NCBI GenBank assembly: GCA_903916255.1
Contig: CAIWVW010000116.1
Location: 1 to 64,000, forward strand
Source of the DNA: an uncultured Bacteroidota bacterium
GTDB lineage: Bacteria > Bacteroidota > Bacteroidia > JABEUT01
DNA length: 64,000 bases
Reading direction: 5' to 3'
The notes under the pieces are model-generated. The model saw only the letters and a list, made by a program, of their open reading frames with translations, searched no databases and was not told the origin of the DNA. Positions 6,566 to 23,808 of this stretch are shown here, piece by piece (position 1 is the stretch's first letter; each line of letters opens with the position of its first letter). A program made the position numbers and the translations under genes.

Positions 6566-6586
6566 AGTTATAAGTTATGAGTTATA
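6566..6586. repeat. Period-7 degenerate tandem array
   Basis: Three heptamers in a row, AGTTATA AGTTATG AGTTATA, just upstream of the permease start. One of many short-period arrays of unrelated units at gene borders in this window. Confidence 0.6.
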
Positions 6587-6704: not shown

Positions 6705-6731
6705 TTGCGACTTTTTTCACCTTTTTGCGAC
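6705..6731. repeat. Paired TTGCGAC direct repeats
   Basis: TTGCGAC occurs at 6705-6711 and again at 6725-6731, 20 bp apart (two helical turns), in the leader of the integrase. Such spacing fits binding sites for one protein, but the biological role is inference only. Confidence 0.35.
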
Positions 6732-6803
6732 CAATTATTGAGACTTCCAATACAGTAGGATATTGCGCAAAGTTACTTTTTAACCGTGAAAAAACTAAAG
6801 AAA

Positions 6804-7937
6804 ATGAAAAACACCTTAATATATAAACATAAAACAGTTTTAGGAACTGTATTTTTAAAGAGCCGTAAAAACGGACTGAACCCCGAAAGCCTTTATTTAG
6901 AAGTTTATCTAAAATCCACTCAAAAACGAAATTTGGAGTTTTTAGGACTTCATTTTACGGGTAATTCCATTTTAGATGGGAAAATTAAACAGGATGCTAT
7001 TGGTAAGTGCATAAACTATGTATTTGCAGAAAAGAAAGCCGCAGATATAACATTTACTGACTTTTGTAAGGAACAGGCAGCAAAAATTGACAATCCTAAA
7101 AGCCGCAGAACGCCTTTAAATACCTTAAAGAAACTGCACGATTATGCTAAAACAGAAACTGTTTTCTTTCATCAAGTAAATGAAGGCTTTTTGATAGGAT
7201 TTAGGGAATGGCTATTAAATAAAGCCCAAAGCGACTGTAGTAAACTCCCAATATCAAAAGGAACGGCAGACCTTTATTTATCTATTATTATGCGTTATGC
7301 GAACAGGGCGCAAAAGAAAGGGCTAATACCATTAACGGCGTTTTCAGTTAATGATATTCCGGCTATTGGTCAGGTCGTAAAAGTACCTATTACCTTAACA
7401 GAAGAAGAAATGATAAAACTGCAAAGCACTTCTTACCCCAAACAAGAAATATGCAAAGCTCTGATGTTTCAGTTTGCATGTGGCCAGCGTTGGGGAGATG
7501 TTAGGGATATGACCTGGGAGCAAATAATAATGGAAGAAGGGCAATATATGATAGTATTGCAACAGGAAAAAACAGATAAAGTATTGCCTTCTTTTATCAG
7601 TAAGGATTTAATGGATTGGGTTGGACAAGGAAAAGAAAGGGAGGGTAGAATATTTCAAAACCTGCCTATAAGTGCAAATTCTATACTTTCACATATGGAT
7701 TCTTGGTGCAAATTAGCTGGAATAAAGAAAAAGGTTGGCACCCATACTATGCGTAGAACATGCGCCACTATTTTGTATAAAAAGGGCGTTGAATTACTGA
7801 CAATAAGTCAAATACTTGGACACAGCAGCAGCGACATTACAAGAAGGTATATAGGTATTGATGAAAAGGACATAAAAAAGGGATTGGATAGGCTAAAAGA
7901 AGTAACAAAGCGATTTAATTTCAACAATGCAGCCTAG
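6804..7937 (+). CDS. Tyrosine-type site-specific recombinase (integrase)
   Basis: About 377 aa from the ATG at 6804; an in-frame GTG at 6786 is possible. The N-terminal 200 residues look like the arm-binding and SAM-like core-binding domains of Bacteroidota integrases (VFLKSRKNGLNPESLYLEVYL at the start). The catalytic domain has all expected residues: Arg229 (CGQRWGD), His314 and Arg317 (THTMRRT), His340 (LGHSS) and nucleophile Tyr349 (RRYIGI). It should cut and rejoin DNA at specific sites to move or invert a DNA segment. It stands at the left edge of the accessory stretch that runs to about 23.8 kb and has its own terminator. Which element it mobilises is not shown. Confidence 0.9.
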   Translation: MKNTLIYKHKTVLGTVFLKSRKNGLNPESLYLEVYLKSTQKRNLEFLGLHFTGNSILDGKIKQDAIGKCINYVFAEKKAADITFTDFCKEQAAKIDNPKSRRTPLNTLKKLHDYAKTETVFFHQVNEGFLIGFREWLLNKAQSDCSKLPISKGTADLYLSIIMRYANRAQKKGLIPLTAFSVNDIPAIGQVVKVPITLTEEEMIKLQSTSYPKQEICKALMFQFACGQRWGDVRDMTWEQIIMEEGQYMIVLQQEKTDKVLPSFISKDLMDWVGQGKEREGRIFQNLPISANSILSHMDSWCKLAGIKKKVGTHTMRRTCATILYKKGVELLTISQILGHSSSDITRRYIGIDEKDIKKGLDRLKEVTKRFNFNNAA

Positions 7938-7960
7938 GCTTTTCCACTTTTAAGATTAAG

Positions 7961-8101: not shown

Positions 8102-8146
8102 TGATTCGTTATAGCCTATTTAGTATATAATAAAATCAACCATTTT

Positions 8147-8863
8147 ATGCAAAGGAAGCTAAAGTGCGTATTAATTGATGACGACCCTTCAATTCATAAG
8201 ATTTTTAAAGAATATCTTGAAGGTAATGAATATGCAGAGTTAACAGATTATTACGAAGACCCTATAGTATTTATTAACTCTAATAAAAAGCCCGATCTTG
8301 TATTTGTAGATATTGAGTTGCCAAACATGGATGGATTTTCATTGGCTATTAATATTAAACCAACCCCAGTTATTTTATTTACAGCACATGCTGAGAAATT
8401 TAAGGACATCATGAATATGGTGGAGGCGATAGACGCATTCCCCAAACCTATTATGAAAGAACGGTTATTAAAATCAGTCCAAAAAGCTCATACATTGTTG
8501 AATTCAAACAAATATGCGGAGGGTTATTCCTTTTTTCATACCAATGAAGGTCATTTGAATATTCAACTTACAGATATTCTATTCGTTAGTACTGTAAAGA
8601 ATTCTCATAGAAATTTGGAATTATTTCTTAAGGGCGGAAAAGTCTTAATATTAAAGGGGTATTCGCTTGAATACCTGCATAGAATTGCAGGATTTTTATT
8701 GCAGCCCAACCGTTTTGAATTAGTTGCCCCAGGAGCAATAGATAAAATTGAACCCAATTTCATATTACGGTTGAAGATTGTAAAAACTGATGGAACAATT
8801 GTGCAAAGTGAATTACTCCGTAGTTTTCGTAAAGATTTTTTCATGCATTTTCAATCTATATAG
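8147..8863 (+). CDS. LytTR-family response regulator
   Basis: A 238-aa protein. Residues 1-120 are a receiver domain with the acidic pocket D11-D13, phospho-acceptor D55 (FVDIELPNMDG), T79 and K100 (FPKP). Residues about 130-238 resemble a LytTR DNA-binding domain (TDILFVSTVKNSHRNLELFL, then LEYLHRIAGFLLQPNRFELVA for the L-x-x-F-x-R-x-H-R segment). In LytTR the usual FxRxHRSxxVN is better conserved, so this copy is divergent. Normally paired with a LytS-type kinase, but none is nearby, so it is an orphan regulator here. It has a good promoter and is flanked by the integrase and a large secreted protein gene that it might control; that link is a guess. Confidence 0.8.
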   Translation: MQRKLKCVLIDDDPSIHKIFKEYLEGNEYAELTDYYEDPIVFINSNKKPDLVFVDIELPNMDGFSLAINIKPTPVILFTAHAEKFKDIMNMVEAIDAFPKPIMKERLLKSVQKAHTLLNSNKYAEGYSFFHTNEGHLNIQLTDILFVSTVKNSHRNLELFLKGGKVLILKGYSLEYLHRIAGFLLQPNRFELVAPGAIDKIEPNFILRLKIVKTDGTIVQSELLRSFRKDFFMHFQSI

Positions 8864-9033: not shown

Positions 9034-12000
9034 ATGAATAACACTACCTCCCCTCAAGCATTTACTTTGAGACTTTTTTTCTCTTTAATGTTTGCTCTAT
9101 TCTTCATATTTAGTAACGCCCAAATCATAACCACAATTGCTGGTAATGGAACTGCTGCTAATACAGGAGATGGCGGGCCTGCCAGTGCTGCCGAACTCAA
9201 TGCACCTGTAGGAGTGGCTGAAGATGCTTCCGGCAACCTTTATATTGCTGCAGGAGCCCGTATTCGTAGAATAACACCATCTGGTACAATAAGCACTATT
9301 GCAGGCAATGGTTTAGTGGGCTTTTCAGGTAATGGGGGACAAGCTACTGCTGCCGAGCTCAGTGCTCCAGCGGATGTAACTGTAGATGCATTTGGTAATA
9401 TTTATATTGCAGATGCAGGTAACGAGCGTATCAGAAAAGTTAACACTTCAGGAATAATTAGCACTTATGCCGGAAATGGAGCTGGAGGATATTCTGGTGA
9501 TGGTGCTGCTGCTACTGCCGCTGAGTTGAATAACCCACTAGGGATTGCAGTAGATGGTTCTGGAAACATTTATGTTGCGGAGCAGGCGAATCATACCATT
9601 CGGATGATAAATACATCAGGAATTATTAGTACAATTGCAGGTGTTGGTACGCATCATGGCTACACTGGTGATGGAGGTACCGCTACTGCTGCGGAACTAT
9701 ATTCTCCATATGGAGTCACTGTTGATGTTTTTGGCAATGTTTATATTGCAGATGAAATGAATTACGTTATAAGGAAGGTTAACACATCTGGTAATATATC
9801 AACCTTTGCAGGTAATGGAATAGCAGGTTCATCAGGAAATACAGGGCAAGCTACAGCTGCTGAACTTAACGGGCCAACTGGAGTAAGGCAAGATGGTTTG
9901 GGTAACCTATATATTGCCGACGCAGGTAATGCAGAAATCAGAAAAGTAAATACGTCAGGTATCATCACTAGATTTGCTGGAAATTATGGTGGAGGATTCT
10001 CAGGTGATGGAGGACAAGCTACTGCGGCCGAAATTGCTAATCCTCGTAAAATTGCATTAGATAACTTGGGAAATCTTTTCATTGCGGATAAAAATAATGA
10101 ACGTATAAGAATAGTTTATGCCCTCCTAACTGTTTCAGCAAGTGTAACTACGAGTATAAGTTGCTATGGTGGAAATAATGGGATTGCAACCGCAAGCCCG
10201 AGAGGAGGTACAAGTCCTTATACATATTCTTGGTCAGGTGGAGGAACAAATTCAACGAAAACAGGATTATCTATTGGAACCTATACAATAACAGTAACTG
10301 ATGCATATAGTCAAACAGCAAGTGCTACTGTTACGGTAACGCAACCACCCTTATTGACTGTTTCAACAAGTCTAACCATGACTTCAAGTTTATACATTAA
10401 TGCAAATGCTAGTGGTGGAACATCTCCATATACGTATTCATGGTCACCTTCATCAGGTTTATCTTGTAGTACTTGTCAAAATGCTGTTGCTACACCCACC
10501 GCTACAACAACCTATTCTGTAACAATAACTGATAATAATGGATGTACAGCCACTGCTTCAGTAACTGCAAATGTTAATACAGGTTCAGCCCCTTCTTTGT
10601 TATCAACACCTCCAATTACCCAATGGACTTATGCAGCACCAGGACAGTATTCCAATGGAATTGGATTTATTGGACAAGATTGGATTTATCAAATAATTCA
10701 AAGCCAGGATGGTTCAAATAGTTATTATGCTGCTGGTTATACTACTACCGATGGTTGCAATACTGTTCCTGTTATACTTAAATTAGACCAATCTGGAAAT
10801 AAACTTTGGGAATATTATTATTTGCCTCCAGGTTGCACAACACCTTGGGGTACTAATGGCACATGTGGTGCTATTTTAGATCCCTATCAAACTCCTAACT
10901 TACTGGATCAATGCCAAAATGGTGTAGTTATGAGTGGTTTTTTTACAATTAAAGAAATAGCGGATCCAGCTTCTCCTACTAGTTATGGAATTATGGCAGT
11001 AGGTCATTATGCTGAAGACTATTGTTCGTCCTCATCTTATTATTCATATCCCGTGCCTAATAGCGCATATACTACTACATGTGTATGTACACCAAATAAT
11101 AATGTTTATCCCAATGGGGGTAATCCAGATAATAAATTTATTTATGCTGTGGAGGTTGATGGTAATGGTTCAGTGATTTCAGATGCGTCAAACAATCAGT
11201 TTTATCCTATAAATGGTGGAGTAAGAGAATTTTGGGGAAATATGTTGGTTGACCCATCTTTAAACTATGTTGGAACAAACTTGGGTATTGCTCAAGACCC
11301 TATAATCAATCAAGGTGGTGGAGGTTCTAATATTGATTATGTATATTTTTCACCTGAAACCTCAACAAACCTGAACGGGTTAATTATTGCATGTCACGCA
11401 TGGATGAATGTACCTTACACTTCCGCATTTGGACAACAACCAACTGAAGCCATGCTGGTAAAATTGGATAAACATTTTAATTTAGACAATAACTTTGGAA
11501 CTGGAAGTCCACAACAAGGTTATGGCTTATACCCTGATCCAACTTATACAACTACCCCAACCAACCCTACACTCTTTGGAGGTGTGGCAGTTATAAATAA
11601 TAATAGTTCTTCTCCCTATTATGTTGTTAGTGGCAACGTCGTAACTACTCTTACTGGGAATCCTACAAATGCTATATACCAGGGTATTAGTACCTATGGA
11701 AACACTCAACTTTGGCATCATAATGAAAGTAGTGCTGCTATAGCCAGCCTTGCAGGCGGATTTCCTTCACAAACAAGTTCATTAACTACTGCCCCTACAT
11801 TTACCCCTAATACTTTTGCGACAGAAGTAAAGTATGTTAACTCATCGGAAGTACTTATTCATACTTGGTGTAACTGGACACAAGGTGGTGGTCCCGATTT
11901 CTATCCTCTGGGAACTGATGAATGCAATAGTTACGGTACTGATCCTTCACCATATATGAATGTTCAAGATGCTGTATTAAAAATTAACCCTACTCCTTCA

Positions 12001-15000
12001 ATAACTTATAACGGAAGTCTAATTTCGGGTTCAACCGGTGCCCCCAATGGAGTTAAATATCTAAAGCAATTTGAAGGCATTGATTTTCTTCCTAAATTGG
12101 TAACTACTGCAGACGGTGGGTATGCAGTATGTGGTGATTTTTCTTTTAATTTACCAAGAACCCCAGATAATATGTCAACACTTGGCGTTCATTTAGGAGT
12201 ATATAATGATCTTGTTAAATTTAACTCAAATGACCAACTACAATGGGACCAGGTATACATGGCTAACAGTGAAGTTAATGGACTACTATGTAGCGGATCC
12301 GGTATATTAACAGGTGTAGGAACCAATTGTAGTTTTGGATTAGCCGCCACAAACGATAATGGATATATTATGGCTGGTAACACAGAATTAAATGGTGATG
12401 ACTACTATGCTATAAAAGTAGAACCCCCAACATGCACCGGTGCATTCACAACTGCGGTTTCACAACTTAATTCTCCGCCATCTGGATATACTGTAATAAC
12501 TAATGGAATTATAATTCCCTTCGGAACAACTTATTGGAGTGGCAATTATTTGGTTCAGGGGTATGTTGAAGTACAACCTGGGGGAGTTTTGCAAATAGAG
12601 CCCGGAACAAACGTATATTTTGCTAATCCTGCAGAAACAGGTGTTGAAACACAAATTGTTCTTGACCAAGGAGATGGTATGTCAACGTATGGAGGCATAC
12701 TTACCCTCAATGGAGTAGATACATTAACAGCAATACCTACCTGCATCACAGGAGCTGGTTTATGGGATGGTATTGAATTGAGAGGAAATTCTATACATCC
12801 ACAATCCTATTTATACGACGCTGCAATAGATGCCGGTGCCAATAGCTATATAAAATATATGAGTTCTTTGGGAATAAAAACCATTAAAACAAATGTTGAT
12901 TTGACACAAGGTGGGCATGAAGGAGGACAAATAACAGCAACCTCAGCAAATTTTATTGATAATGTTCAAGGCCCACAATTCTTTCCCTACTCATATACCG
13001 ACAATAGTAATTTCACTTTGTGTAACTTTACAACTGATGCAAATTATTTATCGGGTGCTTCACTTCCTACTTGTTTTGTTAATTTGAATGGAACCACCGG
13101 GGAAACTTTCTATGGTAACACATTTCAGAATACAAAGGCATGGCCTACAAGTGCCCCAATGTATGAATTGCATGGTAACGGACTTAATAGTACTGATGCA
13201 AATTATACTGTTAGCCCAGACCTTACAGGTACTCCAACACCCAATACATTTAGCGGACTTAATTATGGAGTTTACGCAACAAGTACCTCGGGGATTGCAC
13301 TTACTATAGCAGGTACATCAACTGCCACTGGAAAATCGAATGTATTTACAAATAATTACTATGACATTTATTTATTAGGAACAAACCATGCTGACGTTGA
13401 ATATAATATATTTTCTAAAGCAAATATTGGAAATTTCGGAACAGCTAACACGTATAATTTATTTTTTGATGGCAACGGAGGTATGTCATTCACCGATAAA
13501 TTTAATACTTATGGTTCTGCAACATCGTCCTTACATCCCTCAACTAATTATGGGGATGTTGTAAATAATTCCGGTGGTTCTTCTTATCCTAGCAATGTTG
13601 AAGCTAATACTTACATAGGCTCTAATAATATGAATTATGGCACCTACGCTGAAGGTTCTATATCTCCCCTAACTGCAAATCTAGGTTTGCAAATTTTATG
13701 CAATACTTTTAGTTATGATATTAATTTAACTACTTATAGTGCTGATATAGGAGTGGCTAATTCCGATGGAAGTGTTCCAGATCAAGGGACCAGTGGTACC
13801 CCAGCGGGTAATATATTTAATAATATTTGCACTACTAATACACCCTATGATTTTTATAATGGAGGCAATACCATTGCTAATTATTACTATTGTAGTACAT
13901 GCACGAATAATGACCCAACATGTGTATACAATATAACTAATGTAAATGGTCGTGTCGCTTCACCTGGTTGCCCAACTCCAAATACTCATGCCGCAATTCA
14001 TCATGGGCATAATTTAGCAAGTGAAGATATTTCCGTGTCAGGGGAATATGCAGAGCGCAGCTACGACCAGAATATAGCCGATTCCCTTGGTAATATTCTA
14101 AGCAATGGCAACAAACATTCCTTTTATACTGATTTGAATTCCTTAAGCCCTATTCAAATAGAAGATTCCCTTTTTGTTAGTGGGCCTTATTTATCGGACA
14201 GTATATTGAATGCGACAATTTTAGATAACCTGCCTGTAACAATTTTAGAGAACATATTGATACCAAACTCACCTTTAGACAATAATGTAATTACCACATT
14301 GAATACCATTTCGCTGCCCGATTCCATAGTAAATCAGCTTAATGCCTATCAGTCTGATTCCATTCTTTCGCCACGCACCATATTGCAAAATAATATTTCC
14401 TATTATTTGAGGCAGGTAAGTTTGGCAACTAATGCACTAGTTACCTATTATGTAAACGACACTATCGTGGGAAGGTTTGACAGTGCAATTGCTGCAATTC
14501 AAAGTCTACAGGGCCCTTTAAGCTATCCTTACCTGGCACAAGTCGCCCAGTTGCAAATTACAGCGGGTGAATACACTCCTGCAGTAACCACCCTCACAAA
14601 TTTGAAATCGGCAGATGCAAACTACTCCAATTTCTGCCAATTGATGAATATTCTTATTGCATTAAGGGGCGAACCTAATGGGTATTATGCTTTAAAAGGA
14701 GATTCAACCAATATAGCTACTGTAAATAGTATTGCTATAGATAGTACACACCCTGGTTATGCTAATGCAAGGGCGCTAATGCGGCTTGTTTTCAATAAAC
14801 AATATTTCGCTCCTATTTTTCCCATAACTCACAATAATGGCCCGCAAAAAACTCACAAAAAAATAATTGTAGGGTCAAATAGTTCTCTATCGTCAAACTC
14901 CAATTCTCAATTTAAGATTTATCCAAATCCTGCTAAATATGAAATTACCATTGCCTACAATTTAGCGGGTAGTGTTCAGAAGGCAAAATTTATTTTATAT

Positions 15001-15156
15001 AACGAGTTCGGAAATAGCGTTTCCTACTGGAATTTACCTCTTTCTAAAACCCAAATTAATGAAAATATTTCATCTTTATCAGGCGGATTATACCTATATT
15101 GCATAATGGTTGATGGCAAAGCCGTGCAAAGAGGCAAATTGGTATTAGAGAAATAA
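9034..15156 (+). CDS. Giant T9SS-secreted protein with NHL and SprB-like repeats
   Basis: A 2040-aa exported protein. A signal peptide (residues 1-30, ending ALFFIFSNAQ) is followed by six NHL-type repeats of about 56 residues (about 30-365), each with a phrase like TIAGNGxxGxSGDGGxATAAEL and a following GNxYIAD strand, which should fold as a beta-propeller. Residues about 370-510 carry two SprB-like modules (CYGGNNGIATASPRGGTSPY, YTYSW, TVTD). A long middle with few Cys follows, including NosD-like segments around 1130-1500. The last about 80 residues are a type IX sorting domain (FKIYPNPAKYEITIAY ... GGLYLYCIMVDGKAVQRGKL), so it is delivered across the outer membrane and likely anchored to the surface. 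Its stop overlaps the next start by one base. Adhesion or substrate binding is plausible. Confidence 0.85.
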   Translation: MNNTTSPQAFTLRLFFSLMFALFFIFSNAQIITTIAGNGTAANTGDGGPASAAELNAPVGVAEDASGNLYIAAGARIRRITPSGTISTIAGNGLVGFSGNGGQATAAELSAPADVTVDAFGNIYIADAGNERIRKVNTSGIISTYAGNGAGGYSGDGAAATAAELNNPLGIAVDGSGNIYVAEQANHTIRMINTSGIISTIAGVGTHHGYTGDGGTATAAELYSPYGVTVDVFGNVYIADEMNYVIRKVNTSGNISTFAGNGIAGSSGNTGQATAAELNGPTGVRQDGLGNLYIADAGNAEIRKVNTSGIITRFAGNYGGGFSGDGGQATAAEIANPRKIALDNLGNLFIADKNNERIRIVYALLTVSASVTTSISCYGGNNGIATASPRGGTSPYTYSWSGGGTNSTKTGLSIGTYTITVTDAYSQTASATVTVTQPPLLTVSTSLTMTSSLYINANASGGTSPYTYSWSPSSGLSCSTCQNAVATPTATTTYSVTITDNNGCTATASVTANVNTGSAPSLLSTPPITQWTYAAPGQYSNGIGFIGQDWIYQIIQSQDGSNSYYAAGYTTTDGCNTVPVILKLDQSGNKLWEYYYLPPGCTTPWGTNGTCGAILDPYQTPNLLDQCQNGVVMSGFFTIKEIADPASPTSYGIMAVGHYAEDYCSSSSYYSYPVPNSAYTTTCVCTPNNNVYPNGGNPDNKFIYAVEVDGNGSVISDASNNQFYPINGGVREFWGNMLVDPSLNYVGTNLGIAQDPIINQGGGGSNIDYVYFSPETSTNLNGLIIACHAWMNVPYTSAFGQQPTEAMLVKLDKHFNLDNNFGTGSPQQGYGLYPDPTYTTTPTNPTLFGGVAVINNNSSSPYYVVSGNVVTTLTGNPTNAIYQGISTYGNTQLWHHNESSAAIASLAGGFPSQTSSLTTAPTFTPNTFATEVKYVNSSEVLIHTWCNWTQGGGPDFYPLGTDECNSYGTDPSPYMNVQDAVLKINPTPSITYNGSLISGSTGAPNGVKYLKQFEGIDFLPKLVTTADGGYAVCGDFSFNLPRTPDNMSTLGVHLGVYNDLVKFNSNDQLQWDQVYMANSEVNGLLCSGSGILTGVGTNCSFGLAATNDNGYIMAGNTELNGDDYYAIKVEPPTCTGAFTTAVSQLNSPPSGYTVITNGIIIPFGTTYWSGNYLVQGYVEVQPGGVLQIEPGTNVYFANPAETGVETQIVLDQGDGMSTYGGILTLNGVDTLTAIPTCITGAGLWDGIELRGNSIHPQSYLYDAAIDAGANSYIKYMSSLGIKTIKTNVDLTQGGHEGGQITATSANFIDNVQGPQFFPYSYTDNSNFTLCNFTTDANYLSGASLPTCFVNLNGTTGETFYGNTFQNTKAWPTSAPMYELHGNGLNSTDANYTVSPDLTGTPTPNTFSGLNYGVYATSTSGIALTIAGTSTATGKSNVFTNNYYDIYLLGTNHADVEYNIFSKANIGNFGTANTYNLFFDGNGGMSFTDKFNTYGSATSSLHPSTNYGDVVNNSGGSSYPSNVEANTYIGSNNMNYGTYAEGSISPLTANLGLQILCNTFSYDINLTTYSADIGVANSDGSVPDQGTSGTPAGNIFNNICTTNTPYDFYNGGNTIANYYYCSTCTNNDPTCVYNITNVNGRVASPGCPTPNTHAAIHHGHNLASEDISVSGEYAERSYDQNIADSLGNILSNGNKHSFYTDLNSLSPIQIEDSLFVSGPYLSDSILNATILDNLPVTILENILIPNSPLDNNVITTLNTISLPDSIVNQLNAYQSDSILSPRTILQNNISYYLRQVSLATNALVTYYVNDTIVGRFDSAIAAIQSLQGPLSYPYLAQVAQLQITAGEYTPAVTTLTNLKSADANYSNFCQLMNILIALRGEPNGYYALKGDSTNIATVNSIAIDSTHPGYANARALMRLVFNKQYFAPIFPITHNNGPQKTHKKIIVGSNSSLSSNSNSQFKIYPNPAKYEITIAYNLAGSVQKAKFILYNEFGNSVSYWNLPLSKTQINENISSLSGGLYLYCIMVDGKAVQRGKLVLEK

Positions 15157-16688
15157 TGTTTAGAAAAGGTGCATTTTTATTGTTCTTTATCGGTATTTTG
15201 GGCAATTTTACAATTGCCCAAAATATTAGATTCAATGAAGCTTTTCCTATAATTCCAGGACTAGCTGCGTCGTCACTAAGTATCATGGTTGAACCTAATG
15301 GGTACATAATTTATGGTATTACCCTTGATTCTAAAGGTCACCAGGATATTGCTTTATCAAAAATAGATAGCACAGGAAATATACTATGGAAAAAATCCTA
15401 TCCTAAAGCGAGTTATAATTTTCTTCCCTATGCAGTGTGTAACGAATTAGGAATTAATATCCCATGGGGAGGTGAAATAGGAGAAATAGATTGGTATAAT
15501 GATACAGTGTCATCTCTAGTTTGTTGGGGATTATACCGGTTTGATGGAAATGGAGATACGGTATGGACAAGAAACTATGCAGATTCTACATTTACCCTGA
15601 CTGATGAAATAAAAATTACAAGGGATGAGAAATATTTAATATATGGTGCTTGGATAAATTACGCTGACCGTTACCAGGGATTTTGCACTCTTTTCTTAAG
15701 AAAAACAGACAGTTTGGGAAATTTAATTTGGACTAGAACCTATCATTATTCAGATAGCTTGACAAGAGAAGCTTCTGGTATTGATACCTGTAAAGATGGA
15801 GGATATATTTTATGTGCTTATGAGAAGGATACCAATACTAATTACTCTAAAATAAATTGTTGGGATGGGAAAATCATGATAATGAAAACAGATTCTGGAG
15901 GTAATATCAAATGGACAAAATATATTCCCAACCCAATTTGTGATGTGAGAGCATTTTCTATTAGGACACTAAAAAATGGAGGATATTTAGTTTCTGGCTT
16001 CTGGGATGATAGTCTCAATTGGAATGGAGATATAGCGTTCTCTCATATGTATATGGCTAAACTAAATGATACTGGAAGTATCGTATGGAGTAATACCTAT
16101 GGGCTAATTAATGAAGAGGGTCACAATGTTCTTAATGACGTCAGGGAATTGCCGAATGGAGACATCATAGCTTGTGGTTTTGGAGATTCTTTATTAAAGC
16201 CACAACCAGGTGCAATTTTAAGAACAGATTCCAATGGTAATCAAAAATGGTTGAGATATTATTATAAGGTTTATCCTACAGACGAAGATTATTTAACTGA
16301 TATACTATACACTCATAATGGCGGATTTATTGCTTCCGGTTATACTTATGATAATCCTGAGAACTTTTGGGTTGTAAAAACCGATAGCATGGGATGTGAT
16401 ACGATAGGGTGCAATTATACGGGATTAGAACAGTTCAAAGAAAGCGTTGGAGAAGTGAAAGTTTATCCTAATCCTAACAATGGTTCTTTTACAATTTCCT
16501 TTTTAAACATAAATGGAAAATGGACTGTTGAAATATATGATGTGCTTGGAGAAAGTATTTATACAGCAGTTCTAAATTCAGATAATACGGAGATTAGTCT
16601 TAAGAATCAGCCCCCAGGTATTTATTTCTACCGTATTTTAACCCATAACGAAGCCTTAATTGGCTCAGGGAAATTAATTATTGAGTAA
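15156..16688 (+). CDS. T9SS-secreted protein with repeated beta-propeller-like motifs
   Basis: A 510-aa exported protein whose ATG overlaps the stop of the giant protein (TAATG), so the pair is translationally coupled. A signal peptide (residues 1-22) precedes repeated blocks with phrases such as DSTGNILWKKSY, DGNGDTVWTRNYAD, DSLGNLIWTRTYH, DTGSIVWSNTYG and DSNGNQKWLRYY. These are typical of secreted propeller-like proteins of Bacteroidota ('delta-60' or PQQ-like repeats). The end (about 430-510) is a type IX sorting domain (VKVYPNPNNGSFTISF ... PPGIYFYRILT). The middle of the 2040-aa protein contains related phrases (DQSGNKLWEYYY), so the two genes may share ancestry. Function unknown. Confidence 0.8.
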   Translation: MFRKGAFLLFFIGILGNFTIAQNIRFNEAFPIIPGLAASSLSIMVEPNGYIIYGITLDSKGHQDIALSKIDSTGNILWKKSYPKASYNFLPYAVCNELGINIPWGGEIGEIDWYNDTVSSLVCWGLYRFDGNGDTVWTRNYADSTFTLTDEIKITRDEKYLIYGAWINYADRYQGFCTLFLRKTDSLGNLIWTRTYHYSDSLTREASGIDTCKDGGYILCAYEKDTNTNYSKINCWDGKIMIMKTDSGGNIKWTKYIPNPICDVRAFSIRTLKNGGYLVSGFWDDSLNWNGDIAFSHMYMAKLNDTGSIVWSNTYGLINEEGHNVLNDVRELPNGDIIACGFGDSLLKPQPGAILRTDSNGNQKWLRYYYKVYPTDEDYLTDILYTHNGGFIASGYTYDNPENFWVVKTDSMGCDTIGCNYTGLEQFKESVGEVKVYPNPNNGSFTISFLNINGKWTVEIYDVLGESIYTAVLNSDNTEISLKNQPPGIYFYRILTHNEALIGSGKLIIE

Positions 16689-16704
16689 TCACCAATACCC
16701 ATCC

Positions 16705-16720
16705 AAAAGTATCTGGTGGC
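16705..16720 (+). repeat. 16-bp direct repeat, left copy at the restriction island
   Basis: AAAAGTATCTGGTGGC, followed after T by GGTTTT. The same 16 bases occur at 21794-21809 and 21893-21908. This copy is 16 bp after the stop of the T9SS gene and 87 bp before the restriction-modification gene. Confidence 0.8.
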
Positions 16721-16806
16721 TGGTTTTGCGATAATATGTTATGTCCTTTATGTTGAATTGATAAATAATTCCCTACTTTTACTGCATACTAATTAAAGGA
16801 AAGCAA

Positions 16807-19560
16807 TTGGCATTAAGTTGGAATGAAATAAAAAGCAGGGCGGTACAATTCTCAAAGGAATGGGAGAATGAAGCCAGTGAAGATGCCGAGGCAAAATCAT
16901 TTTTGGATGGTTTTTTCAATGTTTTTGGAATAAGCCGCCGCAGGGTTGCCACTTTTGAAACCAAAGTACATAAGGCTGGCGACAGAGACGGCTATATTGA
17001 CCTGCTATGGAAAGGAGTATTGCTTATTGAACAAAAATCACGGGGCAAAGATTTAGATAAAGCCTATAAACAGGCAACGGATTATTTTTCGGGATTGAAA
17101 GAGAACGAGCTGCCAAAAAGTATTCTGGTCTGCGATTTCGACCGTTTCAGACTTTATGATTTAGAAGAAAATACCCAAGTAGAATTTCATTTAAAAGACC
17201 TCTATAAAAATGTAAAACATTTCGGGTTTATTGCAGGTTACCAAAAACAGGTTTACAAACCCGAAGACCCTGTAAACATTGAGGCAGCCGAACTGATGGG
17301 CAAGCTCCATGATATGTTAAAGGCAGTTGGTTACACAGGGCATCAGTTGGAAGTTTATTTAGTACGCCTGTTATTTTGTCTGTTTGCCGATGATACCACC
17401 ATTTTTGAAAAGGGCATATTTGAGGACTTAATACGCAATAACACTCGGGATGACGGCAGCGATCTTGCAGACCGGATTGCAGGGCTGTTTGAGGTATTAA
17501 ATACCGCCCCAAAAGACAGGCTGAAAAATATTGATGAAACCCTGAATGCCTTTCCCTATGTAAACGGCAAACTTTTTGAAGAAAGCCTGCATAGGGCAGC
17601 ATTTGACAGCAAAATGCGGAAAATACTTTTAGATTGTTGCGTTTTAAATTGGGGCAAAATTTCACCTGCTATTTTCGGCTCCATGTTCCAGAGTGTGATG
17701 AACCCCCAGGAAAGGCGCAGCCTTGGAGCGCATTATACATCAGAAAAGAACATTTTAAAACTGATTAAGCCCCTGTTTTTAGATGACCTGCACGAGGAAT
17801 TTGAAAAAGCAAAAGGCAGTAAAAACAAATTGGTAGAGTTTCATAAAAAACTATCTACCCTTAAATTTTTAGATCCTGCCTGCGGGTGCGGCAATTTCCT
17901 TGTAATTACATATAGGGAGCTACGTTTACTTGAAATTGAAATCTTGAGAGTACTCTACAAAACCGAAACCGAAACAGCCGCTATTTTGGTTGAAAATGCT
18001 TTGTGGATTGATGTTGACCAGTTTTTTGGCATAGAATATGAAGAGTGGCCAGCCCAGATAGCCCAAGTTGCCATGTGGCTGATGGACCACCAAATGAACA
18101 TGAAAATTAGTGAAGAGTTTGGCGAATATTATGTGCGCCTGCCTTTAAGAAAGAGTGCTACGATAATACCTAATAATGCTTTGCGATTGAATTGGGAAAG
18201 TATTGTAAGCAAGAATCAACTCTCGTACATTTTAGGTAATCCACCATTCAGAGGTACATCTTACCAGTCAAAAGAACAAAAAGAAGATATGGCAACTATA
18301 TTCAAAGGCGTATCATCTTTAGGCATGTTGGACTATGTATCGTGTTGGTATATTAAAGCAGCGCAATACATATCAGGGACTAAAATTAAAGCGGCATTCG
18401 TTTCAACTAATTCAATCAGTCAAGGGGAACAAGTTGGAATATTATGGAAGGAATTATATAATAAATACAAATTAAAAATTCACTTCGCTCACCAAACTTT
18501 TAAATGGAACAATGAATCTAAAGGAAAAGCCGCAGTACATGTTGTTATTATTGGATTTGCTGATTTTGATATTCCCAAAAAGTTATTATATGAATACGAC
18601 CATTCAGGTGGTGAACCACATGAATTAAAGGTAAAAAACATTAATCCATATTTAGTTGAAGGGAATGATATAACCTTACAGTCAATTACTAAACCTATTT
18701 GTAAAACACCGTTGATGCAGTCTGGTAGTGCCTTAAGGGATGGTGGGCATTTGATTTTAATGAATGAAGAGAAAGAACAACTCACTAGCAGGTATCCAAA
18801 TTCAAAAGAATTCATTTGTAAATTTTATAGTGCAGAAGAATTTATAAAAAATAAAATTAGGTGGTGTTTATGGCTTAAAGATATAGACCCAAAGAGATAT
18901 AACAACATCTCTGAAATTATGGAACGATTAAAATTGGTTAAAGAGTTTAGAGAAAACAGTCCCCGATTAGGAACTAAGAAAATGGCGGATTACCCGATGC
19001 TTTTTGCTGAGGAAAGACAACCATCCTCAGATTATTTGCTTATTCCTAAAGTAAGCTCTGAAAATAGAAAATATATTCCCATTGGATTCATTTCAAAAAA
19101 TGTAATAGTAACAGACAAAGTCTTTATTATACAACATGCCAGTTTATACCATTTTGGCATTATTACTTCAATTATGCACATGACATGGATGAAATATACA
19201 TGTGGCAGAATGAAAAGTGATTTCAGTTATTCTAATTCAGTTGTGTATAATAATTACCCCTGGCCTGAGAACCCTACCGATAAACAAAAGGAATCAGTTG
19301 AAAAAGCAGCGCAAGCGGTTTTAGATGCTCGTTTACAATTTCCTTATAGCTCACTTGCTGATTTATATGACCCGTTAAGTATGCCCCCTGCTTTGGTAAA
19401 AGCCCACCAAGAATTAGACAAGGCAGTTGATAAATGCTACCGCGCCGCTCCTTTTGAGAGCGAAACCAAACGGATAGAATACCTTTTTGAACTGTACGAA
19501 AAATACACCGCAGGGTTGTTTGCCGGGGAAGGCAAGAAAAAAAGAAGAAAAAAAGCATAA
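16807..19560 (+). CDS. MmeI-like (type IIL) restriction-modification enzyme
   Basis: A 917-aa single-chain enzyme. The TTG at 16807 is taken as start: AAAGGAAA lies just upstream and the next in-frame ATG would remove the nuclease domain. Residues about 60-85 have the D...ExK nuclease signature (DGYIDLLWKGVLLIEQKSRG). A helical linker follows. The methyltransferase core (about 350-490) has FLDPACGCGNFLVITYREL (SAM site) and GNPPFRGTSYQSKEQKEDM (NPPF, adenine-N6 type). Residues about 600-800 would be the target recognition domain. This order matches MmeI-family enzymes, which methylate one strand and cut about 20 bp away. The PIN-like gene begins 1 bp after its stop. Recognition sequence cannot be predicted. 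Confidence 0.88.
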   Translation: MALSWNEIKSRAVQFSKEWENEASEDAEAKSFLDGFFNVFGISRRRVATFETKVHKAGDRDGYIDLLWKGVLLIEQKSRGKDLDKAYKQATDYFSGLKENELPKSILVCDFDRFRLYDLEENTQVEFHLKDLYKNVKHFGFIAGYQKQVYKPEDPVNIEAAELMGKLHDMLKAVGYTGHQLEVYLVRLLFCLFADDTTIFEKGIFEDLIRNNTRDDGSDLADRIAGLFEVLNTAPKDRLKNIDETLNAFPYVNGKLFEESLHRAAFDSKMRKILLDCCVLNWGKISPAIFGSMFQSVMNPQERRSLGAHYTSEKNILKLIKPLFLDDLHEEFEKAKGSKNKLVEFHKKLSTLKFLDPACGCGNFLVITYRELRLLEIEILRVLYKTETETAAILVENALWIDVDQFFGIEYEEWPAQIAQVAMWLMDHQMNMKISEEFGEYYVRLPLRKSATIIPNNALRLNWESIVSKNQLSYILGNPPFRGTSYQSKEQKEDMATIFKGVSSLGMLDYVSCWYIKAAQYISGTKIKAAFVSTNSISQGEQVGILWKELYNKYKLKIHFAHQTFKWNNESKGKAAVHVVIIGFADFDIPKKLLYEYDHSGGEPHELKVKNINPYLVEGNDITLQSITKPICKTPLMQSGSALRDGGHLILMNEEKEQLTSRYPNSKEFICKFYSAEEFIKNKIRWCLWLKDIDPKRYNNISEIMERLKLVKEFRENSPRLGTKKMADYPMLFAEERQPSSDYLLIPKVSSENRKYIPIGFISKNVIVTDKVFIIQHASLYHFGIITSIMHMTWMKYTCGRMKSDFSYSNSVVYNNYPWPENPTDKQKESVEKAAQAVLDARLQFPYSSLADLYDPLSMPPALVKAHQELDKAVDKCYRAAPFESETKRIEYLFELYEKYTAGLFAGEGKKKRRKKA

Positions 19561-19561
19561 A

Positions 19562-20596
19562 ATGAGTACACCACCTATTTCAGTAGTTTTTGATACAAAC
19601 TCCTACAGGACACTTGTGGAAGATGCCAAAATGTACAAAGTCCCCACCATTGTTAAGGAATTGAAAGAACTTGAGAAACAAAAAAACATTAAAGCACTTG
19701 GCCCGTTAATTGTAGCTATGGAGATGTTAAGTCATCTAGCGGATATGCCAAAAGGAAGACATTATAAAGAATGTTTGCGTGGAATCCGTGCAATGGCATT
19801 GCATTGTTCAGAAGGTAATCTCGACTCTTTTTGGAAAAGGCTGGTCAGTTGCTATAAGGTAATTAGGAAATTACCTGACCCAACATTGGAACCAAGAATA
19901 ATTGCTCAACCAGTCCTTCAATATGCCCAGCTTTTTTTCAATGCAACAATACCGGACAAACAAAATGAAAACGAAAATATCGCAAGTGTTGTTAGGGATT
20001 TTGGTAGATGTTGGTGGTATGCTAGAAGATTTCATTCCAGAACATCAAATTTCACAAATATTAAAAATATGCTCACTGCCAAAGAGCTAGAATTTGCAAA
20101 TGATGTTGAAAATGGAATTAATGCGGCAAAAGCAGACATACGTAGTAAAAAACCTACAATTACCGATTCTCAATTAAGAACTGACCTAATTCTATCTTTA
20201 AATTCAGCTCCAACTAGAAATTTAACAGCTATTGGGATTATTGCAGCGGTTGGATATCATTTAAATTCACCATTACTTGCAATCCCTATAGAAATTCAAA
20301 AAAGAGGGCAAGCGTTAAATAGGGTTTTCCCTTTAGCAGCAGGATTTAGATGCTGGGTAAATAAAAAGGTAGTGGAAGATAGTATTGATATCAAGTCTAG
20401 AGCATCGCAAAGGAAAAGATGGAACTGGATTTGGGATGAGCAAGTTGCCATGCTGATTTCTCACAGTACACTTAACCAAGGGGAAGTAATACTTGTTACT
20501 GGTGATACTGATTTACAGGACTGCATAAAAGCCTTTGGATTTGCAACAAAGGTTATGAATTTAGTTGATTATTATTCTTTTTTAAAGTCACCCTAA
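19562..20596 (+). CDS. PIN-like domain protein coupled to the restriction enzyme
   Basis: A 344-aa protein starting at the ATG one base after the restriction gene stop. The N-terminus has the first acidic site of the PIN nuclease fold (SVVFDTNSYRTLV, D11 and N13) and E54 in VAMEMLSHL. The far C-terminus has ILVTGDTDLQDCIKA (D315, D317), like the last acidic strand of PIN domains. If so, about 250 helical residues are inserted in the fold. PIN proteins are Mg-dependent ribonucleases, often toxins or defence effectors. Its tight coupling to an MmeI-type enzyme suggests a joint anti-phage role or a regulatory one. The assignment rests on three acidic motifs only, and no antitoxin-like gene is adjacent. 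Confidence 0.55.
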   Translation: MSTPPISVVFDTNSYRTLVEDAKMYKVPTIVKELKELEKQKNIKALGPLIVAMEMLSHLADMPKGRHYKECLRGIRAMALHCSEGNLDSFWKRLVSCYKVIRKLPDPTLEPRIIAQPVLQYAQLFFNATIPDKQNENENIASVVRDFGRCWWYARRFHSRTSNFTNIKNMLTAKELEFANDVENGINAAKADIRSKKPTITDSQLRTDLILSLNSAPTRNLTAIGIIAAVGYHLNSPLLAIPIEIQKRGQALNRVFPLAAGFRCWVNKKVVEDSIDIKSRASQRKRWNWIWDEQVAMLISHSTLNQGEVILVTGDTDLQDCIKAFGFATKVMNLVDYYSFLKSP

Positions 20597-20600
20597 CCTT

Positions 20601-20729
20601 ATACTGGAAAAAGACCGGAAAGAATTTGAGAAAAGCAGAAAGGCGAGTGCAAATACCATCAACATTTATGCGAAAGGTAAGGTTGTTGGGAATCTTGGAA
20701 GATTAAAGAGTAAAAAGAAAGTTTTATAA
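20601..20729 (+). pseudogene. Unstarted coding fragment after the PIN-like gene
   Basis: An open frame of 42 codons without an upstream start (a stop lies at 20583-20585 in the same frame). It encodes a charged C-terminus-like piece (ILEKDRKEFEKSRKASANT then NIYAKGKVVGNLGRLKSKKK) and ends at 20727-20729. Composition looks coding, so it is probably the remnant 3' end of a lost gene. I do not recognise the family. Confidence 0.35.
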
Positions 20730-21317
20730 TTCATTTATCAGGGCGTTCCCCTGATACCATGAAGGGGGCGGGCTATACGCTGCAATTCCTCCCCTGCTAC
20801 TCGCTTCGCTTAGCTTCAGGGTTGCGGGATTTCCGCTGCTATCCCTAACGCTAAAACACCTAACCCCACATCTAACTATTACTCCGGTTCTCCACAAATT
20901 TAAAGGCAGGGCAAACAGCCGAACCTGTCAACCGTCTTTTGCGGCATAAATTTATTCCAATTCCTCTCTTGTTATTCCTTTGCTGAACCGGCACAGTCAG
21001 AGATTGCCTGCTTATTCAATGGTCAATCCCCGACTGAGCCGGATAAATACTTCAGCGCCGGAACGGTATAAAAATATACTGTTCATCCATTCGCTAATGC
21101 ATGCTCCGCCTATCATTAACTACATTCCCTCACAGAATATTTTGATACCGCCCAAATAAAGAGGGTAACAAGGGATTTTCTCGGCATAAATTTATTCCAC
21201 AGTCCGGTTCCCCGGATAACAGCCATGAAATCCGGTGACAGAACCGCCCTGCCTTTATGCTTTGCGGATAACCGCAGTACTGCAAACACGCAGCTAATGC
21301 ATAAATCAAAATACAAA
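20730..21317. other. Non-coding accessory stretch with repeats
   Basis: No convincing gene in about 590 bp. It is more GC-rich than its surroundings and starts with GGGCGTTCCCCTGATACC followed by GGGGGCGGGCTATACGCTGC, a type of sequence I associate from memory with the ends of Bacteroidota mobile elements (unverified). It holds two copies of CGGCATAAATTTATTCCA (20942-20959 and 21182-21199), each accompanied by a nearby TCCGGTTC, and an imperfect inverted repeat GAACGGTATA / TATACTGTTC around AAAA at 21061-21084. This may be the end of an element or a control region for the DUF6943 gene. Confidence 0.45.
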
Positions 21318-21740
21318 ATGAAACAGTTCACATTAAAGACCTACCGGACTTCCGCATCGGTAGAACTAAACAGCTTTTACATCCTGAACAAAGGAATGAA
21401 CAGCGGAAGGCCACATCCCAAACCATTTTGCAATAGCTTTACCTTTATTGCAGATAATCCCGAAGAAATGGAAATGTTCTACTGGATAACCTTTGCTGCC
21501 TGGCAGGCAAAACTATTCCATCCCTACATCAAAGGCTCTGTAATTCCATTTATCACCATAATGGACACGGTAGAAGTGATTAATGATGCAAGTAAAAGAT
21601 GCATTGCTAATCCTGAAAGAGTAGGCAATCTCCTTCAAACATTCCATACGCTTAACCAACTTGAAGGCAAATATGAACGCCTTGCCAAACTGACAACAGA
21701 GGCAAAACGAGCCGCCGCGCTCAAATTCATTAAATCTTAA
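21318..21740 (+). CDS. DUF6943 family protein
   Basis: A 140-aa protein from the ATG at 21318 (MKQFTLKTYRTSASVELNSF). The pattern NKGMNSGRPHPKPFCNSFTF, then a predicted helical WITFAAWQAKLFHPYIKGSV and IPFITIMD, is one I recognise as DUF6943, a family common in Bacteroidota mobile and accessory regions with unknown role. No catalytic motif or signal peptide. It is followed by a strong terminator and lies inside the segment bounded by the 16-bp direct repeats. Confidence 0.65.
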   Translation: MKQFTLKTYRTSASVELNSFYILNKGMNSGRPHPKPFCNSFTFIADNPEEMEMFYWITFAAWQAKLFHPYIKGSVIPFITIMDTVEVINDASKRCIANPERVGNLLQTFHTLNQLEGKYERLAKLTTEAKRAAALKFIKS

Positions 21741-21750
21741 TCCCATATAA

Positions 21751-21777
21751 GCCTTGCAGAAATGCAGGGCTTTTTTT
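21751..21777 (+). terminator. Rho-independent terminator after the DUF6943 gene
   Basis: Stem GCCTTGCA / TGCAGGGC (one G-T pair) with a GAAA loop, followed by seven T residues, 10 bp after the stop. Confidence 0.8.
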
Positions 21778-21793
21778 ATGGTCGTAAGGCTAG

Positions 21794-21809
21794 AAAAGTA
21801 TCTGGTGGC
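21794..21809 (+). repeat. 16-bp direct repeat, first right copy
   Basis: AAAAGTATCTGGTGGC followed by GGGTTTTAGG. Identical core to 16705-16720, 5089 bp away, and placed directly after the DUF6943 terminator. Confidence 0.8.
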
Positions 21810-21892
21810 GGGTTTTAGGTCCCCCTGACAAATTGGAAACTGACTAAAACCATAATTTCTTATCTGATTTTAATCGATAGCAACAGCCTTCA

Positions 21893-21908
21893 AAAAGTAT
21901 CTGGTGGC
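21893..21908 (+). repeat. 16-bp direct repeat, second right copy
   Basis: AAAAGTATCTGGTGGC followed by GGTTTTATGG, 99 bp after the first right copy. The 84 bases between copies contain no gene but include one TGACAAAT motif. Confidence 0.8.
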
Positions 21909-22047
21909 GGTTTTATGGGGAGTAATAGGGCAGTATTTCCTTGCTTTGAAATATTAAACTTAACAGCATTATTTAGGAGCATTTCCACATTGATATTCAG
22001 GATAAAATGAGGGAAATATTATTTTACCCTAATTTATCACTGTTAAA

Positions 22048-22254
22048 TTGAAGTATAGGTTCGTACTATTTTTTTCAATAAAATCCCATAATCAATGGGA
22101 AAAGGGCTGTATTGCTTTATTTTACTGCCCAAATTCACTCGATAAAAAAATATTTTTCGGGGTGTTTAAAGGGGATGCTTTTATTTCTCATAGAAAATCG
22201 GGTATTTATTCCACTTTTGAAGTAACAGAGTTTGCCAAGGATTTGTCAGCCTGA
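22048..22254 (+). CDS. Small hypothetical protein (possible)
   Basis: A 68-codon frame from a TTG, encoding KYRFVLFFSIKSHNQWEKG, then CIALFYCPNSLDKKIFFGVF and ending KSGIYSTFEVTEFAKDLSA. Amino-acid composition is protein-like, but no family is recognised and the start is weak. It is the only plausible gene in the 920-bp stretch 21741-22662 besides a 27-codon frame at its end, and it runs into the TGACA cluster. It may be a gene remnant. Confidence 0.3.
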   Translation: MKYRFVLFFSIKSHNQWEKGCIALFYCPNSLDKKIFFGVFKGDAFISHRKSGIYSTFEVTEFAKDLSA

Positions 22255-22436
22255 CAAATCTACCTGACATAATGACAATTGGCACAGTTACAGGCTTTGA
22301 CATACTGTTACAGATTTGTCATGACAGTTTGCCTGACATACTTTGACAGACATTGACACACATTGACACTTGTCCTCTGACAATTGCAATTATACGTTTG
22401 CAATCTAAACTCTTAAAAAATATTTAGACCTTGACA
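22244..22436. promoter_or_regulatory. Iteron-like cluster of TGACA motifs
   Basis: About eleven TGACA and two TGTCA (its complement) occur in under 200 bp: plus-strand TGACA at 22252, 22265, 22273, 22298, 22322, 22334, 22344, 22354, 22364, 22378 and 22432; TGTCA at 22244 and 22317. Positions 22344, 22354 and 22364 are exactly 10 bp apart, within near-identical CATTGACACA units. A GTCTGT/ACAGAC hairpin follows at 22471-22486. This looks like a multi-site binding region such as replication iterons or an operator array. It lies 230 bp upstream of the RNase H-fold gene. Confidence 0.6.
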
Positions 22437-22582
22437 ATTTTGTTTTATTCGGTTTTAGACTGTTTTAATTGTCTGTCAGCAACAGACAGGATAATTTTGA
22501 TTCACTTACTTTTTAACAACCCAAAAAATAATGATAACAACCCCAAAAATAAAATTTATACCCCATAAAATAAAATTAATCT

Positions 22583-22666
22583 ATGAAAAATTGTATAGAA
22601 TTTCCCTTCACTTTAGATAAAGCATGTTATTTCTTTGCCTTTCCACAAATTATTAAAATACTATGA
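22583..22666 (+). CDS. 27-codon leader frame overlapping the next gene (possible)
   Basis: A frame starting ATG AAA AAT TGT (MKNCIEFPFTLDKACYFF...) and ending with TGA in an ATGA overlap with the start of the 166-aa gene. The overlap suggests translational coupling, but such a short frame can arise by chance in this A/T-rich DNA. Confidence 0.25.
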   Translation: MKNCIEFPFTLDKACYFFAFPQIIKIL

Positions 22667-23163
22667 ATTTATACGTTGACAATGAATGGTACAGGAATCA
22701 AAAGATATTCCTCCATTCAACCGCCACAGATTACTCACGATGTTATCAATTATGGGGCTCGATGCTTACAAAGGAGAATATTATTAAATCCCTCCAGCCA
22801 GCTAAAAAAGGCTACATTTTCTTTTATGGCCCTGACATTGGTATGATTGAAAAACAATTCAAAATCAACATCCGTGATAATTATGTCTGTATTAATTTAC
22901 TTTCGGTATTCCGATACCAATTACCTAAAAGGAGTTGTTACAAACTTGAAAGCCTGGAGCAGGACTTTGGCCTGACACGAAAAATTGCTAAATATAAAAA
23001 GAGCATCTTCAATATCTATAGTGACTTTCATAATGTTGAAAGAAAAAAGGATGTACTCCTGTACAATCAAGATGATGTTATTAATCTCAGGCAACTGAAG
23101 CAAATTATCTTCAAGAAATATCCTATATCTGAAAAGGAACTTATTAAAAGAAGATTAAAGTAA
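22663..23163 (+). CDS. Probable RNase H-fold (DEDD/YprB-like) exonuclease
   Basis: A 166-aa protein with features of the DnaQ/YprB-type RNase H-like fold. Near the start YVDNEWYRN has D6 and E8 in place of the usual DxE. In the middle IFFYGPDIGMIEKQF gives the second aspartate (D58). Toward the end CYKLESLEQDFGLTRK is followed by LLYNQDDVINLRQLKQI, matching the L-x-x-LE-x-x-x-G-x-x-R and Y-N-x-x-D-V-x-x-L pattern of YprB-like proteins. It would degrade or trim nucleic acid 3' ends. It has strongly A/T-rich composition, unlike its flanks, and follows the TGACA cluster, so acquisition with a mobile element is likely. Family assignment is by motif only. Confidence 0.5.
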   Translation: MNLYVDNEWYRNQKIFLHSTATDYSRCYQLWGSMLTKENIIKSLQPAKKGYIFFYGPDIGMIEKQFKINIRDNYVCINLLSVFRYQLPKRSCYKLESLEQDFGLTRKIAKYKKSIFNIYSDFHNVERKKDVLLYNQDDVINLRQLKQIIFKKYPISEKELIKRRLK

Positions 23164-23171
23164 TTGACGCT

Positions 23172-23525
23172 ATGAGCATTCAGGTAATAACCATTGGCAC
23201 CCAGGAATTGCAAGGCATTATATCAGATGCCTACAAAGAAGGGTATATCAAAGCTCAACGGGAATGGGTTGCCGAGAATGCAGCCCGGAAGGAAGAACCT
23301 AAATTCGGAGAGATACTAAGAGGGGTTAAAGAACTCCGGCAATATCTCCTTTATAAAGAGCATTGGAAAGGTTCTATTTCCACTTTAAGTAAAGTTGCAC
23401 CCCAACTCTTAGAAGAAGGGGATAAACAAGGACATGGATTAATTTTCCGCAAGGGCTGTATAGACCACGCTTTTATCAATGGTTTTCACTTCAAACCATT
23501 AAGCAAAAAGCAAAATAATTGTTAG
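23172..23525 (+). CDS. Small hypothetical protein, possible helix-turn-helix (DUF3853-like)
   Basis: A 117-aa protein starting 8 bp after the exonuclease-like gene, probably in the same transcript. The first 50 residues are a helical, charged segment (ELQGIISDAYKEGYIKAQRE). The second half, GVKELRQYLLYKEHWKGSI then LIFRKGCIDHAFINGFHFKP, has the layout of small MerR/excisionase-like or DUF3853 proteins found beside Bacteroidota integrases (a compact helix-turn-helix, then a strand-turn with GxIDxAFxxG). The match is weak. If correct it would be a DNA-binding directionality or replication factor. Confidence 0.4.
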   Translation: MSIQVITIGTQELQGIISDAYKEGYIKAQREWVAENAARKEEPKFGEILRGVKELRQYLLYKEHWKGSISTLSKVAPQLLEEGDKQGHGLIFRKGCIDHAFINGFHFKPLSKKQNNC

Positions 23526-23780
23526 TAATTATTAACAAATTAACTTCATTAAAATAGCCCTTTGATAAGCATTTTCATGTATCTTTGAAGCATGAAAAAC
23601 ATCATAAAGAACGGGCTTTCCTTTGCTCACAGGTATTTCACAGCAACCTGCATCAAGCATTCTCTTTATGTTTTGAGGCCAAATTTTGAGACCAAGTCTT
23701 TCACTTCCCTGTATTTACAGAGGGTGCAGAGGCAGTATAGTATTTTGAGTTATAAGTTATTTCCGAATTAGCTTTGGGTC
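23526..23780. other. Intergenic stretch at the right edge of the accessory region
   Basis: No convincing gene. It contains a TAATTATTAACAAATTAAC A/T-rich piece and a 59-codon frame (23592-23771, starting MKNIIKNGLSFAHRYF) without recognisable similarity. AGTTATAAGTTAT at 23748-23760 also occurs at 6566-6578 next to the integrase, but it is a period-7 sequence of a type common in this window. Confidence 0.3.
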
Positions 23781-23808
23781 ATAACTCATAATTTATAACT
23801 CATAACTT
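23781..23808. repeat. Period-7 degenerate tandem array
   Basis: ATAACTC ATAATTT ATAACTC ATAACTT in a row, ending at the stop codon of the methyltransferase gene. Confidence 0.6.

Follow-up and report, generated by a model that had tools for sequence, protein, structure and literature searches.

A 64,000-nucleotide stretch of DNA from an uncultured Bacteroidota bacterium (assembly GCA_903916255.1, contig CAIWVW010000116.1, positions 1 to 64,000; hereafter the window) contains at 6578-23754 what genome comparison identifies as one integrated element of 17.2 kb with its own tyrosine recombinase at the left end. Three copies of a 16-bp direct repeat lie inside this element. A first-pass annotation had taken them for attachment (att) sites or recombination scars at the borders of a mobile module made up of an MmeI-like restriction enzyme, a PIN-like protein, a gene remnant and a DUF6943 protein. 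As judged from sequence, the 16-mers do not bound a mobile module. The explanation favored here, with moderate confidence, is that the element was inserted by its own recombinase and that the 16-mers are an internal direct-repeat family rather than excision or insertion sites, the two right-hand copies being native and likely protein-binding sites and the left-hand one an extra copy at a cargo junction. What had looked like a 5-kb cassette between repeats is thus seen as part of a 17-kb element of known limits, whose att sites, sisters and cargo can now be compared.

Ends of the 17.2-kb element and its sister elements

The limits of the element follow from an empty site. In the closest relative (G002, site L051) the LolC-like gene lies directly beside the methyltransferase gene and the 17 kb are missing; in the window the same two genes (5324-6556 and 23808-24614) flank the block, and other congeners are also without all of it, the comparison genomes being one per species and many of them incomplete metagenome bins. 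Both flanks join at the 9-bp TGAGTTATA, which is single in the empty site and doubled here at the element ends, and the insert is therefore read as a single unit (Table 1), of which the integrase is the first gene. The target is an intergenic palindrome between the LolC-like and methyltransferase genes, which the element would have entered through its own tyrosine recombinase, as the comparison indicates. A palindromic AGTTATAAGTTATGAGTTATAAG repeat is found at 6565-6590 and 23743-23808; it has many copies in the genus, and the element sits in one of them.

Three sister elements in other species (L125 = G001:C17, L126 = G005:C25, L059 = G008:C3) share with the window element its recombinase at one end and its 117-residue protein at the other (identities in Table 1). 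All four elements have an arm-type site, TTTTGCGACYAACTnTTG, just upstream of the integrase; its counterpart toward the right end is a clear match in L126 and L059 (17/18) and a poorer one in the window (16/20) and L125. The cores of the four are found 146-148 bp outward of the left arm and, at the other end, 60-62 bp (74 bp in the window) outward of the right arm; those of the sisters are 7-8 bp long and were located by similarity, and their limits are less certain than those of the window core, which the empty site fixes. This core-and-arm layout is that described for the att sites of tyrosine recombinases and integrative and conjugative elements (ICEs) (PMC11963761). The earlier proposal thus holds in that the locus is mobile, and the recombinase near 6804 is part of what moved; its identification of the 16-mers as the att sites gives way to the element's own sites at 6578 and 23746, the empty site and the like arrangement of the three sisters. 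The 16-mer was also rejected as a site of this recombinase (start 6786), whose core and arm sites are other sequences at the true ends, and TTTTGCGACYAAC was rejected as an element boundary since sister similarity runs ~100 bp past it and the empty site sets the end further out.

Among known systems the closest are non-conjugative tyrosine-recombinase integrative elements and genomic islands, which likewise have an integrase at one end, direct cores at both ends, arm sites beside the core and variable cargo that includes restriction-modification (PMC11963761 for the ICE att sites). Unlike these, the present element is known from sequence alone and is inserted in an intergenic repeat, not in a tRNA gene, and a Pfam scan of its main reading frames found no relaxase or conjugation gene, by which an ICE or an integrative and mobilizable element would be recognized. 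The recombinase is not of the IntI type (36 bits with the integron integrase model, cut-off 265). Sister element L125 (2543-13700) lies between a sigma-factor gene and a STAS-purA pair and has other cargo, made up of kinase-like, metallopeptidase-like and unknown genes, which looks like defence cargo.

The 16-bp repeat and the genes that accompany it

The 16-mer AAAAGTATCTGGTGGC occurs as three exact plus-strand copies (c1, c2 and c3; Table 1), precisely where the first-pass annotation had placed them and, as it also stated, outside all genes of the supposed module. Chance expectation is 0.64 matches even allowing <=3 mismatches, and the whole 3.74-Mb assembly holds the sequence at <=1 mismatch only at these three sites, with no scatter of further copies. 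GGTTTT does follow each copy, after a gap of 0-1 rather than 0-2 bases. Copy c1, placed 17 bp past the stop of the type IX secretion system (T9SS) gene 15156-16688, lies ahead of the MmeI-like gene as claimed but not directly before it, its end being 86 bp from the start codon in a leaderless intergenic region. The right-hand copies do come after the DUF6943 terminator, c2 being 54 bp past the stop and beyond a terminator-like hairpin, with a spacing of 99 bp from c2 to c3. Flanking sequence differs between the copies, and further exact direct repeats occur nearby, e.g. the 18-mer CGGCATAAATTTATTCCA at 20942 and 21182. The 16-mer is dissimilar to the core and arm-type sites of the element and shows no dyad or inverted arms, the best arms (5/9 to 6/8) being matched by 21-80% of shuffles, a test that is weak alone as true att cores score low too.

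A search of 11 congeneric genomes for the degenerate form of the repeat, AAARTATCYDGNNGCNGGTTT, at 0-1 mismatch gave just two elements, the present one and a related one in G006:C87 that has tRNA-Asn as its insertion site. The latter has four copies with a 53-bp period between a J-domain gene and an RNase_H_2 gene, has no MmeI, and has nothing bracketed by the repeats. The array occupies the relative place of c2/c3, with a backbone gene before it and the RNase_H_2 gene after it. The RNase_H_2 gene accompanies the repeat in both repeat-bearing elements, and sisters L059, L125 and L126 are without the gene and without the repeat; the repeat therefore goes with the RNase_H_2 segment and not with MmeI or DUF6943. 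Among the congeners either the whole element is missing or the repeat is present as an array, and none of these genomes has a single 16-mer in place of the c1-c2 segment.

Wider searches gave matches attributable to chance. Four other exact matches to the degenerate pattern in 395 genomes of the class are all within reading frames of >430 codons, an exact 16-mer in G063 is inside the isocitrate dehydrogenase gene, and one-mismatch 16-mers in other genomes were no more frequent than with a reversed-pattern control. The pattern had zero matches in viral contigs, and no RNase_H_2 homologues were found in the phages, plasmids and viral contigs searched. Direct repeats ahead of RNase_H_2 are not a general Bacteroidota rule, as they were not seen in most of 27 loci. 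In some other loci this position ahead of the gene, which in the window is taken by a dense cluster of TGACA/TGTCA words, has iterated words of another kind, GTTACA in L129 and GGTTAACC-like ones in L060, much as origins or initiator sites do. In L129/L143 (G275:C13, CAIMUP010000013.1) the RNase_H_2 homologue adjoins a 972-residue primase/helicase-like protein, and this block could be a prophage.

Gene content of relatives assigns DUF6943 and RNase_H_2 to the predicted backbone and MmeI to the cargo, because Lacibacter cauensis L155 and Chitinophagaceae L152 keep RNase_H_2, DUF6943 and recombinase without MmeI there. In the Chitinophagaceae element L153 an MmeI (61% identical) is next to DUF6943 with no repeat, MmeI and a RelE-like gene having been gained between RNase_H_2 and DUF6943; such an association without the repeat was among the outcomes that the first-pass annotation itself had named as refuting a module tied to the 16-mer. 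RNase_H_2, DUF6943 and recombinase stand at a conserved border in L153, L155 and L152. Nor was the repeat found around MmeI in L058 (71% identical) or around DUF6943 in L059, and literature searches for this gene combination found no paper on it. Cargo (MmeI, PIN-like) and backbone (DUF6943, together with a structured segment present in four relatives) both occur in the c1-c2 interval, which is therefore no clean cassette; its loss would remove the structured segment and DUF6943, parts that are retained in sister elements.

The backbone (integrase, structured segment, DUF6943, right-end protein) is now separable from the cargo (T9SS proteins, Type IIG enzyme, PIN-like), and the Bacteroidota genus in which this family of elements carries defence genes has been little studied. 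The MmeI-like protein has the N-terminal nuclease, helical, methyltransferase, target-recognition and C-terminal domains, with NPPF at residue 478. It shares with MmeI-family Type IIG enzymes all five domains and the NPPF and EQK motifs, and departs from them in the PIN-like protein that follows. DUF6943 probably starts at about 21319, because the L059 homologue begins at MKQFTLKTY. AlphaFold models of the right-end and PIN-like proteins were too poor to use (pLDDT 41 and 44).

Table 1. Features of the element in the window (coordinates of the window unless a locus is given)
Feature	Position	Strand	Basis or remark
Left core repeat (attL), TGAGTTATA	6578..6586	+	empty-site comparison with L051
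Left arm-type site, TTTTGCGACCAATTATTGAG	6723..6742	+	conserved in sister elements
Tyrosine recombinase (integrase)	6786..7937	+	PF00589, E 1.1e-21; 59-61% identical in L059, L125, L126
Response regulator receiver protein, cargo	8147..8863	+	PF00072
Two T9SS-sorted proteins (NHL/SprB-repeat, 2040 aa; 510 aa), cargo	9034..16688	+	
16-mer copy 1 (c1)	16705..16720	+	fullest match to G006 repeat unit
MmeI-like Type IIG restriction-modification enzyme, cargo	16807..19560	+	five MmeI Pfam domains; PADLOC REase_MTase_IIG, 1221 bits; NPPF motif
PIN-like protein (weak), cargo	19562..20596	+	PIN_12, E 0.019, below cut-off
Structured RNA candidate, about 440 nt	20878..21315	-	conserved in L059, L060; diverged in L125, L126
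Copies of the structured segment	L059:9691-10118; L060:4127-4538; L125 about 10735-11340; L126 about 3600-3985		
DUF6943 protein, backbone	21225..21740	+	PF22105, E 1.3e-36
16-mer copy 2 (c2)	21794..21809	+	exact match, genome-wide search
16-mer copy 3 (c3)	21893..21908	+	exact match, genome-wide search
Cluster of 14 TGACA/TGTCA words (78 in whole window)	22244..22478	.	word count
RNase_H_2 (DnaQ-like) protein	22663..23163	+	PF13482; 62% identical in G006:C87
Conserved right-end protein	23172..23525	+	~60% identical in L059, L125, L126
Right arm-type site, TTTTGAGGCCAAATTTTGAG	23671..23690	+	16/20 match to left arm
Right core repeat (attR), TGAGTTATA	23746..23754	+	empty-site comparison, sister-element layout

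Origin and role of the repeat copies

In the favored explanation the element would be cut out and inserted at sites other than the 16-mers, and these would belong to a family of short direct repeats in its interior, roughly AAAAGTATCYDGNGGCNGGTTTYGCTAAAAT. The c2/c3 pair would be in its native place, which comparison with the four-copy array of G006 bears out, and pair and array would most likely both be bound by a DNA-binding protein with a part in the element's replication, maintenance or regulation. The same control or replication region would also hold the TGACA/TGTCA cluster, which is possibly an origin or protein-binding region. Copy c1 would be an additional one, sitting where the T9SS cargo meets the MmeI-PIN cargo, and may derive from module exchange between related elements or have been retained as an operator. 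The repeats resemble the iteron arrays and the repeats bound by regulators or recombination directionality factors of plasmids and ICEs in being short, direct, noncoding and near a DNA-metabolism gene, with the 53-bp period in G006; they differ in that no Rep protein is identified here and in the arrangement of two copies 99 bp apart and one 5 kb away. Several points weigh against this explanation. The repeat has no known binding protein, and searches of the element, the Pfam scan among them, brought up no replication initiator; the c2-c3 spacing mismatches the G006 period; the repeat-bearing elements known are only two; and a binding-site role alone leaves c1 at the cargo boundary unexplained.

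A rival proposal sees c1 as the scar left when two related elements, each carrying the repeat, exchanged modules by homologous or illegitimate recombination, with no dedicated system. Copy c1 is exactly between two cargo blocks and keeps more of the G006-type unit (GGTTTTGCGATAAT vs GGTTTCGCTAAAAT) than do c2/c3, as if it came from another array, and its right flank is nearer to the G006 unit than are the c2/c3 flanks and thus suits exchange. However, neither the 11 congeneric genomes nor the 395 genomes of the class yielded a donor element with the order it predicts, and we consider this origin of c1 rather unlikely, if still a serious candidate. A lower standing is given to the proposal that c1 is an operator tying MmeI expression to the element's regulator, the c2/c3 pair regulating the element's own genes: its position upstream of the MmeI start codon is appropriate, but MmeI homologues at 61-71% identity are without the 16-mer upstream and the c2/c3 pair is 750 bp from the next gene, which makes such a role unlikely.

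The original proposal, in which the 16-mers are attachment sites or scars of an MmeI-PIN-DUF6943 unit moved by the integrase of the element or by another recombinase in trans, is judged less likely still. It accounts well for exact, genome-unique direct repeats at both edges of the restriction-gene segment and for copy flanks that differ as in att sites. Against it, the sites of the recombinase itself are elsewhere and unlike the 16-mer, which is without inverted arms; the G006 array brackets nothing; the MmeI-DUF6943 pairing exists without the repeat; and backbone lies inside the bracketed interval. A length of 16-18 bp is, moreover, short for RecA-dependent recombination. Xer/dif (pdif) modules and integron cassettes offer a likeness in a gene segment between short direct repeats, unlike which there are here no inverted recombinase-binding arms, no attC and no dedicated recombinase. 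That the 16-mers are meaningless chance or decayed low-complexity repeats, as other short repeats in the region might suggest, is highly improbable given exact, genome-unique copies and a cognate array in the same place of a second element.

A structured RNA candidate beside DUF6943

What separates the annotated remnant, a short reading frame that ends at 20730, from DUF6943 is for the most part no decayed gene but a structured noncoding stretch of 438 nt (folding z -9.0 vs shuffles). Its identity to the copies of L059 and L060, which stand ahead of different genes, is 82% and 70%. The minus-strand consensus has 124 pairs, 94.9% of them standard, with 21 pairs changed on both sides vs 7.6 in shuffles; when partners are slid by 1-3 columns, pairing falls to 36-44%. 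The diverged copies of L125 and L126 retain the shape, with 119 pairs, zero non-standard cells and 9 double changes. Support comes from five copies, three in one alignment and two in another, with the structure derived from the same sequences. G-U cells are enriched on the minus strand (40 G-U and 5 A-C, vs 11 G-U and 10 A-C on the plus strand), which speaks for a minus-strand RNA and against a hairpin at the DNA level.

This candidate is the part of the element most likely to be new. Like the large structured bacterial noncoding RNAs, it is several hundred nucleotides long and shows long-range pairing, covariation and association with a mobile element; unlike them, it matched no Rfam 15 family at the gathering score and is found so far only in this genus, to which its conserved motif is confined among 385 genomes searched. 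It stands head to head with a backbone gene, either DUF6943 or a 73-residue protein plus J-domain protein. We suggest only tentatively, at somewhat under even chances, that the element family carries an undescribed structured-RNA class (~370-440 nt) head to head with a backbone gene, and that this RNA and the 16-mer array, lying in the same control region, together serve Bacteroidota integrative elements as a module for maintenance or control. A shortened copy at L061:8593-8749 (G006:C5) keeps both base blocks (92-94% identical) with the middle gone, followed by the start of a p73-like gene. Adjoining the segment in the window, at 20762-20856 on the minus strand, is a hairpin like Flavo-1 RNA (RF01705, 34.9 bits, under the gathering score of 42).

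Just outside the element, at 24647-26250 on the minus strand, the window has a HEC-01-like defence pair, an AAA ATPase and a DUF4276 protein (PADLOC E 8e-59 and 4.5e-83). The pair is missing between the methyltransferase and rbfA-like genes in G002 and thus appears to be a second insertion at the same locus.

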